A stretch of 43,068 bases of DNA from Candidatus Omnitrophota bacterium (GTDB lineage Bacteria > Omnitrophota > Gorgyraeia > Aquiviventales > Aquiviventaceae): NCBI GenBank assembly GCA_016192545.1, contig JACPTX010000020.1:1-43068 (forward strand), written 5' to 3'. The position numbers were made by a program, and so were the translations under genes. The notes beneath the pieces were generated by a model that saw only the letters and a list, made by a program, of their open reading frames with translations, was not told the DNA's origin and ran no database searches. Of this stretch, positions 3,953 to 33,052 are shown piece by piece; position 1 is the first letter of the stretch; each line of letters starts with the position of its first letter.

Positions 3953-4016
3953 AGGGGTCTAGAGGGGTCAGACCCCGTCAGTTGAGACCATCGTTCTTGA
4001 GGGGTCTGACCCCTCT
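3951..4016 (+). repeat. GGGGTCAGACCCC double-hairpin repeat, copy A (hisB/hisH)
   Basis: A 56-bp core (3961-4016) has perfect 16-bp inverted arms, AGAGGGGTCAGACCCC and GGGGTCTGACCCCTCT. Each arm is itself a small palindrome, and the central region includes GTCAGTTGAGACCATCG and TTCTTGA. A partial extra AGAGGGGTCT precedes it. It is noncoding here. In-frame starts inside it would add an MRPSFLRGLTPL-like leader to hisH and are rejected. Confidence 0.9.
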
Positions 4017-11880: not shown

Positions 11881-11895
11881 GGGGTCTGACCCCTT
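11876..11895 (+). repeat. Half copy B of the GGGGTCAGACCCC repeat
   Basis: CTTGAGGGGTCTGACCCCTT matches the 3' half of the full repeats and includes the radC stop codon. It precedes the strong Shine-Dalgarno of the next gene. Confidence 0.8.
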
Positions 11896-14240: not shown

Positions 14241-14294
14241 AGGGGTCAGACCCCGTCAGTCGAGACCGTCGTTCTTGAGGGGTCTGACCCCTCT
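14240..14294 (+). repeat. GGGGTCAGACCCC double-hairpin repeat, copy C
   Basis: Same orientation as copy A, with a few differences (GTCAGTCGAGACCGTCG). It starts on the last base of the ychF stop and runs directly into the first family-conserved codons of the cyclodeaminase gene, leaving no room for a normal ribosome-binding region. Confidence 0.9.
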
Positions 14295-24592: not shown

Positions 24593-24636
24593 AGAGGGGT
24601 CAGACCCCTCAAGAACTGACGGGGTCTGACCCCTCT
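24593..24636 (-). repeat. GGGGTCAGACCCC double-hairpin repeat, copy D (internally deleted)
   Basis: Reverse orientation relative to copies A and C. Both 16-bp arms are intact, but 12 bp of the centre (GAGACCATCGTT in copy A) are missing. The missing segment is bounded by GTT on both sides, so slippage between short direct repeats can explain the loss. Confidence 0.9.
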
Positions 24637-29862: not shown

Positions 29863-30626
29863 GTCGGGCTGGCGGCTCCGTCGTCGGCCGTCACCGCCAC
29901 CTCCCCCATCAACTCTTGATAGCTGCGCCGCACGATTTCCTGGTCGGAACACTGAAAGACCTCCTCCAGCGCCTCATCCGCCCACACGAGGCTCCCGTCC
30001 GAGCCGGCGACCTGCATCCGGTGCTCGATATAGGTGCGGACCTCGTCGAGATCCAGCGGCTGGATGTGATAGCGCACGGCGATGCGCTGTTGGATCTGCC
30101 GGAGGGAGGGCAGGCTCAGCTTCTCGCGCAGCTGCGGCTGCCCGACGAGGATGATCTGAATGAGCTTTTCCTTGTCGGTCTCGAGGTTGGAGAGCATGCG
30201 GATCTGCTCGAGCACGCGCGGGCTGAGGTGCTGGGCTTCATCGATGATGAGGACGACGTTGTGGCCGCGCGTGGCTTCCTCGATCAGGAAGCCGTTGAGC
30301 TGATTGAAGAGGTTGACGCGGTTGCTGCGCATCGGGTTGAGGCCGAAGTCCTGCACGACGGCCTGCAGCAGCTGCAGCTCCGACAGCCCGGAATGCAGGA
30401 TGAGCGCGGTCTTCGTCGTCTCGTCCAGCTGGCGCAGGAGCGCCTTGCACAGCGTGGTCTTGCCGGTGCCGATCTCACCGGTGATTTCCACGAACCCCTT
30501 GCGCTCGCGGATCCCGTAGCTCATGTGGGAGAGCGCTTCGCGGTGGCGGCGGGACAGATACAGAAAGGCGGGGTCCGACGTGACGGAAAACGGTTTCTCG
30601 CGCAGGCCCAGGAAGTCGAGATACAT
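29859..30626 (-). CDS. ExeA/GspA-like AAA ATPase
   Basis: AAA ATPase that in characterised systems works with GspB to assemble the type II secretion secretin. The 255-residue protein starts MYLDFLGLREKPFSVTSDP, the standard start of the family. It has Walker A TGEIGTGKTTLCKAL near residue 48, Walker B NVVLIIDEAQHLS, and the sensor region QIILVGQPQLREKL. The periplasmic peptidoglycan-binding part of full-length GspA is absent, so it is the short form. ATG 30626 is preferred, since an ATG at 30638 overlaps the -10 element. No other secretion genes are in the window. Confidence 0.85.
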   Translation of the reverse strand: MYLDFLGLREKPFSVTSDPAFLYLSRRHREALSHMSYGIRERKGFVEITGEIGTGKTTLCKALLRQLDETTKTALILHSGLSELQLLQAVVQDFGLNPMRSNRVNLFNQLNGFLIEEATRGHNVVLIIDEAQHLSPRVLEQIRMLSNLETDKEKLIQIILVGQPQLREKLSLPSLRQIQQRIAVRYHIQPLDLDEVRTYIEHRMQVAGSDGSLVWADEALEEVFQCSDQEIVRRSYQELMGEVAVTADDGAASPT

Positions 30627-30636
30627 CCTCCCGTTC

Positions 30637-30665
30637 ATTGTAGGGTGAAACCGTCTCCGACGCAA
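30637..30665 (-). promoter_or_regulatory. Candidate promoter for the exeA-gspB pair
   Basis: On the minus strand: TTGCGT (30665-30660), a 17-nt spacer, and TACAAT (30642-30637). Ten nt separate the -10 element from ATG 30626. GGGAGG directly abuts the ATG, too close for a normal Shine-Dalgarno, so a leaderless start is plausible. Confidence 0.7.
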
Positions 30666-30677
30666 GACGCAAAGAAA

Positions 30678-30731
30678 AGGGGTCAGACCCCTCAAGAACG
30701 ACGGCCTCAACTGACGGGGTCTGACCCCTCT
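30678..30731 (-). repeat. GGGGTCAGACCCC double-hairpin repeat, copy E
   Basis: A 54-bp copy in reverse orientation (centre GAGGCCGTCGTT). It lies exactly between the divergent exeA and pilZ promoters, 12 nt from one -35 element and 6 nt from the other. Confidence 0.9.
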
Positions 30732-30737
30732 CTGATC

Positions 30738-30766
30738 TTGACACCCGGTTCAAGGCGTGCTACGTT
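30738..30766 (+). promoter_or_regulatory. Candidate promoter for the first PilZ gene
   Basis: TTGACA (30738-30743), a 17-nt spacer, and TACGTT (30761-30766). ATG 30780 is 13 nt downstream; ATG 30795 is 28 nt downstream and has a GGCGAGG sequence before it. Confidence 0.65.
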
Positions 30767-30779
30767 GGGCGGTGTCAGC

Positions 30780-31151
30780 ATGGGGGGCGAGGTGATGGGC
30801 GAGGAGCGCCGGCAATCTCCGCGGGTCCAGTCGTATCTGCCGATTCATTTGGTGGTGCTCGGGGAGCAGCGCATTATCCAAACGCTCACCAAGGATCTCG
30901 GCGCCGGGGGGGCGCGGTGCCTCAGCCCGGTGTTTCGGCCCGCCTCGTGCCCGGTATCGGTGGAGTTGTGCCTGGAAGCCGGGGAGCACCCCCTTAATCT
31001 CAAAGCCAAGATTGTCTGGGTCAAGGAGGTTCCCCAGAGCGACCAATACCATCTCGGCCTGATGTTCGAGGATCTCTCTGAAGAAAATACCAAACGCTTG
31101 TCTAGCTATCTCCAGAAAATCTCCTCTGCTCTCGCTCCTGCCGGCCTCTAA
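30780..31151 (+). CDS. PilZ-domain protein 1
   Basis: Probable cyclic-di-GMP-binding or PilZ-like protein. The 123-residue product has ERRQSPRVQSYLPIHLVV, with the RxxxR-type N-terminal motif (RRQSPR), and TLTKDLGAGGARCLSP, matching the second motif D/N-x-S-x-x-G with Ala in the Ser position. A beta-barrel end follows (AKIVWVKEVPQSDQYHLGLMF). Start ATG 30780 or 30795 (118 residues) is open. It is transcribed divergently from exeA-gspB, hinting at control of an envelope or pilus process (inference). Confidence 0.8.
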   Translation: MGGEVMGEERRQSPRVQSYLPIHLVVLGEQRIIQTLTKDLGAGGARCLSPVFRPASCPVSVELCLEAGEHPLNLKAKIVWVKEVPQSDQYHLGLMFEDLSEENTKRLSSYLQKISSALAPAGL

Positions 31152-31197
31152 TCCTCATCTATAACCTATTTAAAATAAACAAGTTAACTCATAAGAC

Positions 31198-31226
31198 TTG
31201 CTACTTGCCTTCCGATATGGTATAGT
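31198..31226 (+). promoter_or_regulatory. Promoter of the 47-residue membrane-protein gene
   Basis: TTGCTA (31198-31203), a 17-nt spacer, and TATAGT (31221-31226), within the most A+T-rich stretch of the window (31151-31230). Predicted start of transcription is about 31233. Confidence 0.75.
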
Positions 31227-31242
31227 TGCAGGTGGAGCACGG

Positions 31243-31275
31243 TAGACAGGAGTCTAGAAAATAGACAAATGTCTA
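31243..31275 (+). promoter_or_regulatory. Tandem TAGAC/GTCTA dyads in the leader
   Basis: Two 14-bp dyads, TAGACAGGAGTCTA (31243-31256) and TAGACAAATGTCTA (31262-31275), start 19 bp apart just after the predicted transcription start. They could be two hairpins in the mRNA leader or two operator sites for a dimeric regulator. Confidence 0.65.
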
Positions 31276-31297
31276 CGGAGGAGGTGAGTTGGAGGAG

Positions 31298-31441
31298 ATG
31301 AAGCTGTCAGAGCGCGGGATGGACGTGTTTGTCGGCGCCATCCTGGGTATCACGATCGGACTGCACTATCCACTCGACTCGTATAAGCTGTTGTTCGTCC
31401 TGTTGAGTGTGATAGGCGTCCTGAAGCTGGCGGTCAAGTAA
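31298..31441 (+). CDS. 47-residue predicted membrane protein, family unknown
   Basis: Not recognised. The product MKLSERGMDVFVGAILGITI and onward has two hydrophobic stretches (about residues 9-27 and 30-45) split by HYPLDSYK, so it may be a small helical hairpin, with charged ends (KLSER, K-x-A-V-K). A near-perfect Shine-Dalgarno (GGAGGTGA at 31280-31287) lies upstream, and an in-frame TTG at 31289 is an alternative start. It has its own promoter, a tandem-dyad leader and an intrinsic terminator 25 nt after the stop, so it is a complete single-gene transcription unit. These signals, more than its length, argue that it is real. Confidence 0.7.
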   Translation: MKLSERGMDVFVGAILGITIGLHYPLDSYKLLFVLLSVIGVLKLAVK

Positions 31442-31466
31442 CCCGCACCCAGGACGGCGAAGACTG

Positions 31467-31506
31467 AGACTGCTCCGCCTTCGACGCGGAGCAGTCTCTT
31501 TTTTTT
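31467..31506 (+). terminator. Strong intrinsic terminator
   Basis: A perfect 12-bp stem AGACTGCTCCGC/GCGGAGCAGTCT with loop CTTCGAC is followed by CTTTTTTTT. It is the only textbook rho-independent terminator seen in the window. Confidence 0.95.
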
Positions 31507-31521
31507 CCGTCGAGATTCCGC

Positions 31522-31551
31522 TTGACCAGCGTCGAGCATCCGACGTACAAT
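31522..31551 (+). promoter_or_regulatory. Promoter of the 35-residue membrane-peptide gene
   Basis: TTGACC (31522-31527), an 18-nt spacer, and TACAAT (31546-31551), starting 16 nt after the terminator T-run. The predicted leader is about 36 nt. Confidence 0.75.
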
Positions 31552-31593
31552 AGCTCCCTTGTCGCTGTAGGGTGTCCTGTTGTGGGGGGAGTC

Positions 31594-31701
31594 GTGTACG
31601 TGCCGTTCTTCAATCCTCGCCTTCCTGACGTGGTCCTGGGGCTCATGATCGGCCTGGGACTCGCGCTCGTCTGGCACTGGGTCGTCTGGACCGTCCACTG
31701 A
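31594..31701 (+). CDS. 35-residue predicted single-span membrane peptide, family unknown
   Basis: Not recognised. The frame from GTG 31594 reads VYVPFFNPRLPDVVLGLMIG and ends LALVWHWVVWTVH, giving one hydrophobic helix (about residues 13-32) with a Trp-rich end. A GGGGGGAG sequence precedes it. GTG 31582 and GTG 31600 are other in-frame starts, and 31600 has the better spacing. A weaker GC hairpin (GGCCGG/CCGGCC at 31707-31723) follows the stop. Its dedicated promoter supports it, but the short length makes the call tentative. Confidence 0.5.
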   Translation: MYVPFFNPRLPDVVLGLMIGLGLALVWHWVVWTVH

Positions 31702-31706
31702 GCCGC

Positions 31707-31723
31707 GGCCGGTTCACCCGGCC
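31707..31723 (+). terminator. Possible weak terminator hairpin
   Basis: A 6-bp stem GGCCGG/CCGGCC with a 5-nt loop is followed by TTCGTT. The T-run is poor, so termination would be partial at best. Confidence 0.35.
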
Positions 31724-31748
31724 TTCGTTGCTCGGTGCCGCTTCAGGT

Positions 31749-31777
31749 TTGACCGGTTTCCTGCGCTGTGTTATCAT
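31749..31777 (+). promoter_or_regulatory. Candidate promoter for the MagIII-like glycosylase
   Basis: TTGACC (31749-31754), a 17-nt spacer, and TATCAT (31772-31777). The ATG at 31787 is only 9 nt beyond the -10 element and has no Shine-Dalgarno, which predicts a leaderless mRNA. Confidence 0.75.
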
Positions 31778-31786
31778 GGCGTCTGG

Positions 31787-32464
31787 ATGTCTTCCAGGAG
31801 CCTCCCGTCGCTGCGAACGATCTACCGGCGGTTGCTCAGACGGCTCGGTCCTCAGCACTGGTGGCCGGCACGCAGCGCGTTCGAGGTCATGGTGGGTGCC
31901 ATTGTCACGCAGAGCACCAACTGGCACAACGTCGAACGGGCGATGGCCAACGTGAAACAGGCCTGCGCGTTGTCGGCCAGGACGATGGCGCGGCTCCGGC
32001 CCTCGGTGTTGCGGCGGTTGATCCGCCCCAGCGGCTATTTCACGCAGAAGGCGGCGCGGCTGAAGACGTTCAGCCGCTGGTACGTCGCGCGCTACGGCGC
32101 GAGTCCCCGCCGGATGTTCCGCACCGAGCCGTGGACCCTGCGGCAGGAATTGCTGGGCCTCCCGGGCATCGGCCCGGAGACCGCGGATTCCATCCTGCTG
32201 TACGCCGGCCAGCAGCCGGTCGCGGTGGTGGACGCCTACACCCGCCGGATTTTCCGCCGGCATCACCTGGCGGAGGGCGATGAGCCCTATGAGGTCATCC
32301 AGCGGTTCGTGATGGACCGCCTGCCGGAGGATCCGAAGGTGTTCAACGAATTTCACGCCCTGCTGGTCGCCGTCGGCAAGTCGTACTGCCACCGGCGAGA
32401 TCCCGAGTGCGACCAATGTCCCTTGGGGGAGTTCCCCCATCACGTTGAGGAGACGCATGCCTGA
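31787..32464 (+). CDS. HhH-GPD DNA glycosylase, MagIII-like
   Basis: Base-excision DNA glycosylase of the endonuclease III superfamily. The 225-residue protein has FEVMVGAIVTQSTNWHNVERA, the hairpin LLGLPGIGPETADSILLYA and the catalytic Asp in VAVVDAYTRRIF. The Lys that makes endonuclease III an AP lyase is replaced by Glu (GPET), as expected for a monofunctional glycosylase such as 3-methyladenine glycosylase III. The iron-sulfur loop has only C-x6-C-x2-C (CHRRDPECDQC), with no fourth Cys at the usual spacing. It differs clearly from the complete nth gene at 10.5 kb. Confidence 0.88.
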   Translation: MSSRSLPSLRTIYRRLLRRLGPQHWWPARSAFEVMVGAIVTQSTNWHNVERAMANVKQACALSARTMARLRPSVLRRLIRPSGYFTQKAARLKTFSRWYVARYGASPRRMFRTEPWTLRQELLGLPGIGPETADSILLYAGQQPVAVVDAYTRRIFRRHHLAEGDEPYEVIQRFVMDRLPEDPKVFNEFHALLVAVGKSYCHRRDPECDQCPLGEFPHHVEETHA

Positions 32465-32708
32465 TCGACCGACGAACTGCCCCACGTGCAATAAGCGGCT
32501 GAGCAAGAAATCGTGGTACTACCGCAACGGCCAGTACGCCTGCAAGAAAGGCTGCTGGCAGGCGGCCCAGGCCAAAGCCAAGCAGGAGCAGACCGCCAAG
32601 CACGCCCCAGGCGAGCCGGTCAAAGAAGCGCCCGCCAAGACTGCGGCGCCCGCGGAGGCCGCGGCCGCTCCGAAGGAAGCTCCAAAAGCAGCCAAGGCCG
32701 GGGGATGA
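32457..32708 (+). CDS. Small zinc-ribbon-like protein with AKPE-rich tail
   Basis: No family recognised. The 83-residue product has four cysteines in NCPTCNKRLSKKSWYYRNGQ and ACKKGCW (CxxC ... CxxxC), compatible with a zinc knuckle. After it comes a ~45-residue Ala/Lys/Pro/Glu low-complexity tail very like that of the small basic protein at 27.1 kb. ATG 32457 has a GAGGAG Shine-Dalgarno and overlaps the glycosylase stop; an in-frame ATG at 32445 would add MRRR. A nucleic-acid-binding role is plausible (inference). Confidence 0.7.
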   Translation: MPDRPTNCPTCNKRLSKKSWYYRNGQYACKKGCWQAAQAKAKQEQTAKHAPGEPVKEAPAKTAAPAEAAAAPKEAPKAAKAGG

Positions 32709-33052
32709 ACGACGACTGCCTCTTCTGCCGGATCGCCCAGCGGAGGCTGCCGGCGGAGATCGTGGCAGAAGATGACGACGTGCTCGCCTTCAAGGACGTC
32801 AATCCGCAGGCGCCGACGCACCTGCTCGTCATCCCGAAATCGCACATCGCCCGCCTGTCGGACCTGACGCCGGAGACGGCCCGCGTGGTGGGACAAACCG
32901 TGCTCATGGCCAACCGCCTGGCACAACAGTCCGGGATTGCGGAGCCGGGCTATCGGCTCGTGATGAACTGCGGCCCGCAGGCCGGGCAGAGCGTGTGGCA
33001 TCTGCACCTGCATCTGCTCGGCGGCCGTCCGATGAAGTGGCCGCCGGGATGA
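32705..33052 (+). CDS. HIT-family nucleotide-binding protein (Hint-like)
   Basis: Purine nucleoside phosphoramidase/hydrolase of the Hint branch. The 115-residue protein starts DDCLFCRIAQRRLPAEIVAE. It carries FKDVNPQAPTHLLVIPKSHI and the histidine triad WHLHLHLLGGRPMKWPPG (HxHxHxx) at the C terminus. The CLFC pair fits the zinc-binding Hint type. Length is typical. ATGA overlaps join it to the genes on both sides. Confidence 0.95.
   Translation: MNDDCLFCRIAQRRLPAEIVAEDDDVLAFKDVNPQAPTHLLVIPKSHIARLSDLTPETARVVGQTVLMANRLAQQSGIAEPGYRLVMNCGPQAGQSVWHLHLHLLGGRPMKWPPG

Follow-up and report, generated by a model that had tools for sequence, protein, structure and literature searches.

A probable, separately transcribed 35-codon membrane-protein gene with a conserved partner in Candidatus Omnitrophota

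In this analysis of a 43,068-nucleotide stretch of DNA (the window), which comes from a 1.35-Mb MAG of Candidatus Omnitrophota in the PVC group (label G000, contig C24), we found a 35-codon frame that is very probably a separately transcribed, translated gene for a small membrane protein (the 35-mer) with a conserved partner, a 47-residue protein (the 47-mer) encoded just upstream. Judging from the profile searches, the two represent small membrane-protein families without a clear Pfam or NCBIfam match, and literature searches found no paper on such genes in Omnitrophota. Candidatus Omnitrophota is described as not isolated and poorly understood (PMC10066038). The finding matters as a stable partnership of two small membrane-protein families in a phylum of this kind, and it indicates that comparison by itself is enough to recover, from MAGs, genes of fewer than 50 codons that have their own promoters.

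The features of the locus are collected in Table 1. The sequence-only reading had placed a TTGACC-18-TACAAT promoter 16 nt past a terminator, and direct reading agrees: the TTGACC box (31522-31527) begins 16 nt beyond the strong terminator of the 47-residue gene and is separated by the 18-nt spacer from TACAAT (31546-31551), with 10 of the 12 consensus positions matched. The terminator stem (31466-31498) has nine G-C pairs among its 13, and the T run extends to about 31506. A promoter scan over 3 kb returned three sites, all on the + strand, where 0.4 were expected. The leader of the 35-mer is about 36 nt long and carries GGGGGGAG. The TTG at 31522, with which the mechanically called ORF opens, sits within the -35 box and is therefore an implausible start; the start at 31594 was set by homologues, with MYVPFFNPR here corresponding to the ATG-started MYIPTFNPR, MYMPTFNPR and MYLPTFNPR. 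The earlier description of a GTG-started 35-codon frame with one Trp-rich helix was borne out, as AlphaFold predicted a single helix over residues 10-34 (mean pLDDT 87.2) and tryptophans occupy residues 27, 29 and 32. A scan of the whole window returned no Rfam family at the gathering threshold and no tRNA.

Table 1. Features of the locus in the window (positions counted from its first letter)
Feature	Position	Strand	Remarks
Promoter-like site of the 47-residue gene, TTGCTA-17-TATAGT	31198..31226	+	9/12 matches
Leader hairpins of the 47-residue gene, TAGAC-AGGA-GTCTA and TAGAC-AAAT-GTCTA	31241..31275	+	AGAC-N4-GTCT in 19/24 homologous leaders
Partner 47-residue gene, ATG 31298	31298..31441	+	predicted to have two helices, the first with GxxxGxxxG
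Intrinsic terminator of the 47-residue gene	31466..31506	+	13-pair stem, T run
Promoter of the 35-residue gene, TTGACC-18-TACAAT	31522..31551	+	recurs at 37/45 starts, 0.92 expected
Shine-Dalgarno-like GGGGGGAG ahead of GTG 31594	31584..31591	+	duplex energy -9.3 kcal/mol
35-residue membrane-protein gene	31594..31701	+	GTG start, TGA stop 31699-31701 included; conserved frame in 45 loci

Comparison with relatives makes it close to certain that the 35-codon frame is a translated gene. A single-sequence search recovered it at E <= 4e-5 in 23 of the 27 genomes of the family (f1), its own included, and also in G027 of a sister family (f2). The profile, which was built with those same sequences, recovered it in 24 of the 27 and in G027, and missed G012, G022 and G023; the 24 f1 genomes each hold one copy at a conserved position. 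Across the 25 sequences, pN/pS was 0.46 and the differences at the three codon positions were 0.41, 0.20 and 0.57, i.e., highest at the third and lowest at the second. Over the 78-nt core, frame 0 scored a BLOSUM of 3.30 per site and was stop-free in 25 of 25, and the remaining five frames scored 0.42-1.99 with stops in 3-18 of 25. Moreover, the GxxxG motif was invariant among 41 aligned 35-mers. The sequence-only reading had proposed comparing the frame, and its co-occurrence with the 47-residue gene, across relatives, and the frame proved to be conserved in the manner of a protein.

The first 35-mer profile, which was run on 293 genomes of the class, found f1 and f2 only, with weaker matches to frames of a different kind. 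More distant genomes were reached with the 47-mer profile, and four 35-mer-like frames came to light downstream of the 47-mers found in this way (G033, G098, G207 and G222). A second profile with these four added matched 44 of the 293 genomes at E <= 0.02, of which 38 hold a 35-mer-type frame (24 f1, 1 f2 and 13 others by our tally), the other six being unpaired frames. Each of the ten outside 35-mers that this genome-wide search recovered without their having served as seeds lies directly downstream of a 47-mer found in a separate search. The same kind of frame was read downstream of the 47-mer in G067, G155, G167, G171 and G179; these five, like that of G295, were found by eye below the 47-mer. 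The five are included in alignment A5, so the 35-mer profile matches on the fetched loci are circular for them, and the 35-mer of G295, which is absent from A5, scored E 0.074. In total, profile searches and flank reading gave 45 loci in eight families (f1, f2, f8, f18, f24, f45, f49 and f59), one of which (G295) belongs to another class of Candidatus Omnitrophota.

A 47-mer homologue lies upstream on the same strand in 44 of these 45 loci, related genomes among which do not count as independent events, with gaps of 40-808 nt (median 133). This observation supports the functional pair suggested by the sequence-only reading, as the adjacency holds in eight families with partly differing neighbours, and on these comparisons we consider a functional link between the 35-mer and the 47-mer likely. 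G001, the genome of which is 65% complete, has a 35-mer without a detected 47-mer; the window's upstream neighbours were not found upstream of it by tblastn, and its 2.6-kb upstream region held no rRNA or other known RNA at the gathering threshold. Within the eight families, the only 47-mer locus without a 35-mer is that of the tandem 47-mers on the 3.9-kb contig G244:C219, and in other classes the 47-mer mostly occurs without a 35-mer.

The lone 35-mer of G001 and the mostly lone 47-mers of other classes would also suit a different explanation, in which each of the two small membrane proteins works for a different larger complex and ancestral synteny is the main reason for their adjacency. 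We regard this as somewhat unlikely. Other genes recur at the locus as well: the order in f1 is mostly ExeA-PilZ-pair-(EndoIII)-HIT-PilZ (some labels are tentative), EndoIII is found upstream in five of the seven f18 loci as well as in G159, and G049 (f24) shares an ExeA/GspB-like neighbourhood by reading. Since several families have ExeA-like, EndoIII and alpha/beta-hydrolase genes near the pair, ancestral synteny may account for part of the pairing. However, EndoIII, PilZ and others have disappeared, changed position or given way to other genes, and the pair has remained adjacent in all but one locus, which means that it outlasts several of its neighbours, and both proteins bear glycine helix-packing motifs. 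Pfam searches on seven neighbours gave PilZ twice, HhH-GPD, AAA and three without a match; AroB, GspB, HIT, rnhA and similar names are tentative labels. A PagL-like gene stands between the two genes in three f18 loci (Pfam on one). In seven of the nine f8 loci, the 35-mer is followed, at -4 to +18 nt, by the start of an M23-peptidase-like gene (Pfam on one, the others by clustering), which is a hint of an envelope link of the pair; in f1, the family of the window, the 35-mer is not followed by any envelope gene.

The two genes had been described as separate mini transcription units, and this extends well beyond the window. A promoter-like site, defined by at least 9 of 12 matches within 90 nt of the 35-mer start, precedes 37 of the 45 starts, with the expectation of 0.92 coming from dinucleotide shuffles, and a hairpin with a T run separates the two genes in 40 of 44 loci (raw count). 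In G001, where no 47-mer was found, the promoter is retained as TTGACG-17-TACAAT. In G005, the genes are 449 nt apart and the 35-mer promoter and frame are still present. Compared with its relatives, the G005 locus (L026) carries about 300 nt extra between the 47-mer terminator and the 35-mer promoter, with inverted sequence around GTCCATTTGACGGG.

The spacing between the -10 box and the start proved to be bimodal, being 6-10 nt in 15 loci and 21-53 nt in 22 (the 'long' label of G222, which has TATAAT 7 nt ahead of its ATG, is probably wrong). The short class starts with ATG in 15 of 15 and the long class with GTG in 16 of 22 (Fisher p = 6e-6; p = 0.003 in f1/f2 alone and 0.011 outside f1/f2), and the mean Shine-Dalgarno duplex energy was -2.0 kcal/mol in the short class vs -7.7 in the long class (p = 1.5e-5); these p-values are weakened because relatives are not independent and the starts were chosen by homology, which leaves the pattern itself unaffected. 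Starts were picked by N-terminal homology, GTG being preferred over an upstream ATG in G118 and G195. Duplex energy was 0 in nine of the 15 short-class loci and -5 kcal/mol or stronger in four, G098 of the long class has almost no Shine-Dalgarno sequence, and G006 and G025, which belong to one genus, fall into opposite classes. In E. coli, leaderless mRNAs are described as beginning at AUG, with other codons far less efficient, GUG being better in some species (PMC9031893). Leaderless translation predicts exactly such a coupling of a short distance with ATG and a weak Shine-Dalgarno sequence. As far as the sequences can tell, the coupling is hard to explain unless the 35-mer frame is translated, and the 35-mer mRNA should be leaderless or nearly so in many relatives. 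As in the leaderless small genes described, for example, in mycobacteria (PMC4633059, PMC9031893), 15 loci have their ATG at the predicted transcription start or close to it; unlike those genes, the 35-mer homologues come in both leaderless-ATG and Shine-Dalgarno-GTG forms. Since both forms occur among relatives, even within one genus, the 35-mer offers a natural test case for start codons following transcription start sites.

For the 47-mer, AlphaFold predicted two helices, 5-28 and 30-46 (mean pLDDT 78.5). The glycines of its GxxxGxxxG motif (G13, G17 and G21) were invariant in 38 aligned sequences, G21 being only nearly invariant once other classes were added. Within the class, it was present in 42 of 293 genomes by our tally (49 with matches) and 251 had no such 47-mer. 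When 334 genomes of the phylum were searched, 44 matched, 21 of them outside the class and 11 of those with two matches. In the 20 outside-class loci covered (all but G317), the double matches are adjacent genes 40-188 nt apart. Tandem 47-mer-like genes outside the class (L217-L227) were seen in G320, G311, G339, G347, G312, G307, G313, G314, G319, G321 and G329, and the gene next after the 47-mer or 47-mers in 15 of the 20 outside-class loci is one that, by reading, looks rnhA-like. On 40 fetched loci, the 35-mer profile gave 59 matches at E <= 10, comprising 19 35-mers of the class, the G295 35-mer, 33 47-mer frames and six others. These matches are a hint, at the level of sequence, of common descent of the 35-mer and the 47-mer, and a hint it stays, because shared hydrophobicity may explain part of them and the hhalign probabilities were just 34 and 49%.

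The leaders of the 47-mer share features of their own. A pattern search recovered a TATGGTA-type box in 20 of the 24 homologous leaders, and AGAC-N4-GTCT stands a short way 5' of the start in 19 of the 24 f1/f2 leaders, the full TCTAGAC-N4-GTCTAGA being present in 13. Within this element, G010 shows paired changes and G025 a G-U pair. One leader hairpin stands just ahead of the Shine-Dalgarno sequence; in many leaders another one can fold upstream, with GGA inside its loop or close to it. These GGA loops prompted the idea of CsrA control, which we rejected, as CsrA was matched in only two of 28 genomes (G016 and G031, not G000), the MAGs being incomplete. The two CsrA-family matches at G016:C2:13546-13884 (L238 and L239) lie within an open frame reported as 9434 codons. 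With up to two mismatches allowed, TCTAGAC-N4-GTCTAGA occurred close to the pair in each of the six genomes scanned (without mismatch in five, with two in G000), three of the six had copies with one or two mismatches at other places, and the window held one match where 0.38 were expected. A shared operator or regulon is unsupported, since a reversed-pattern control outnumbered the pattern in every one of the six genomes.

Both proteins gave only weak, scattered matches in Pfam, NCBIfam and the PDB, and the PHROG search of the 35-mer was likewise weak (best E 0.0017). A phage origin of the 35-mer was rejected, as a search of 50,697 phage records (E up to 1) returned no match. Matches to NDUF_B4, PetG, PsbJ, CydH, MscL, FUSC_2, YccS and similar families had a best E of 0.005 or worse. 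XapX/DUF1427 and DUF2273 are short two- or one-helix membrane domains, like the 47-mer and the 35-mer, but they matched only one or two members at E 0.03-0.29 and 0.009-0.05, respectively. The assignment of the 47-mer to XapX/DUF1427 was rejected, with DUF1427 reaching a best E of 0.03 in two of 38 members and XapX 0.066 in one of 35. A light-harvesting antenna was also considered for the 35-mer. Antenna polypeptides carry a conserved histidine ligand in the helix, and one of 41 35-mers, a member outside the 11 shown singly, matched Pfam LHC (PF00556) at E 0.0033. His 28 occurs in at least 90% of the 25 f1/f2 35-mers (Lys in G004 and Arg in G006). The antenna reading was rejected because the PDB profile searches, which ran to E 10, returned no antenna chain and the histidine is not conserved outside f1/f2, position 28 being Arg or Lys in 19 35-mers from other families of the class.

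The best explanation of the whole may be that the genes, each transcribed on its own, encode two subunits of a single inner-membrane assembly, and we judge this, from sequence patterns, to be about an even proposition. The 35-residue protein would be transcribed alone, presumably constitutively, from its near-consensus sigma-70-type promoter and inserted in the inner membrane. Its single helix would pack through its GxxxG face onto the GxxxGxxxG face of the two-helix 47-mer, giving one hetero-oligomeric assembly in which separate promoters would set the dose of each partner. Direct contact of the two proteins has, in our estimation, one chance in two; GxxxG is common in membrane helices and hence is no proof of contact. 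The cell envelope would be the likeliest site of action, where the pair might act as a scaffold or else regulate an enzyme or transporter of the envelope whose gene lies elsewhere, and such a role is proposed only tentatively. Most Candidatus Omnitrophota are described as ultra-small. Speculatively, the pair could be an ancient glycine-zipper membrane assembly of Candidatus Omnitrophota, made of two components and with a structural or gating job in the envelope, the 35-mer having arisen from a tandem 47-mer copy minus its second helix; tandem 47-mers in other classes and the remaining matches of the 35-mer profile, which are mostly 47-mers, point to that origin. AcrZ, CydX and KdpF are stand-alone small inner-membrane proteins that regulate larger complexes. 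Like these and MgrB, the 35-mer has fewer than 50 residues, a predicted membrane helix and its own gene far from an obvious target complex; unlike them, it is repeatedly encoded beside a second small protein as a pair, and neither a sequence relation nor a target complex was found.

Further explanations fare much worse than a membrane assembly of the two proteins. The size and hydrophobicity of the 35-mer would fit a type I toxin, a small hydrophobic peptide silenced by an antisense RNA, but we find this very improbable: a consensus scan found no minus-strand promoter-like site in 30000-33000, the gene is single-copy in each of the 24 f1 genomes, where it keeps a conserved position, and many homologues look leaderless, their ATG being exposed. 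A two-peptide, GxxxG-based bacteriocin is to our mind just as improbable. Class IIb bacteriocins and Caulobacter CdzC/CdzD are described as pairs of small peptides that bear GxxxG or GxxxGxxxG motifs and are encoded by adjacent genes, as here, and Cdz-type systems as often horizontally acquired (PMC6382864, PMC5380434). Unlike these, the pair has separate promoters and is widely conserved in the family, no transporter or immunity gene was found among the neighbours tested and no leader peptide is visible, as only about nine residues precede the predicted 35-mer helix. The alternative raised by the sequence-only reading, a small RNA with an incidental frame, would suit a small autonomous unit with its own promoter but is the least probable of all, given the protein-type conservation (the third codon position differing most and the second least, with only the sense frame conserved and open in all 25), the lack of an Rfam family at the gathering threshold in the window, and a start codon and Shine-Dalgarno sequence that track the promoter position, which argues for translation.

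Elsewhere in the window, GGGGTCAGACCCC / GGGGTCTGACCCC palindromes, which are REP- or MITE-like, are repeated as four pairs and one single copy, at 3964-4013, 11881-11893, 14242-14291, 24596-24633 and 30679-30728; this element gave nine matches where 0.13 were expected.
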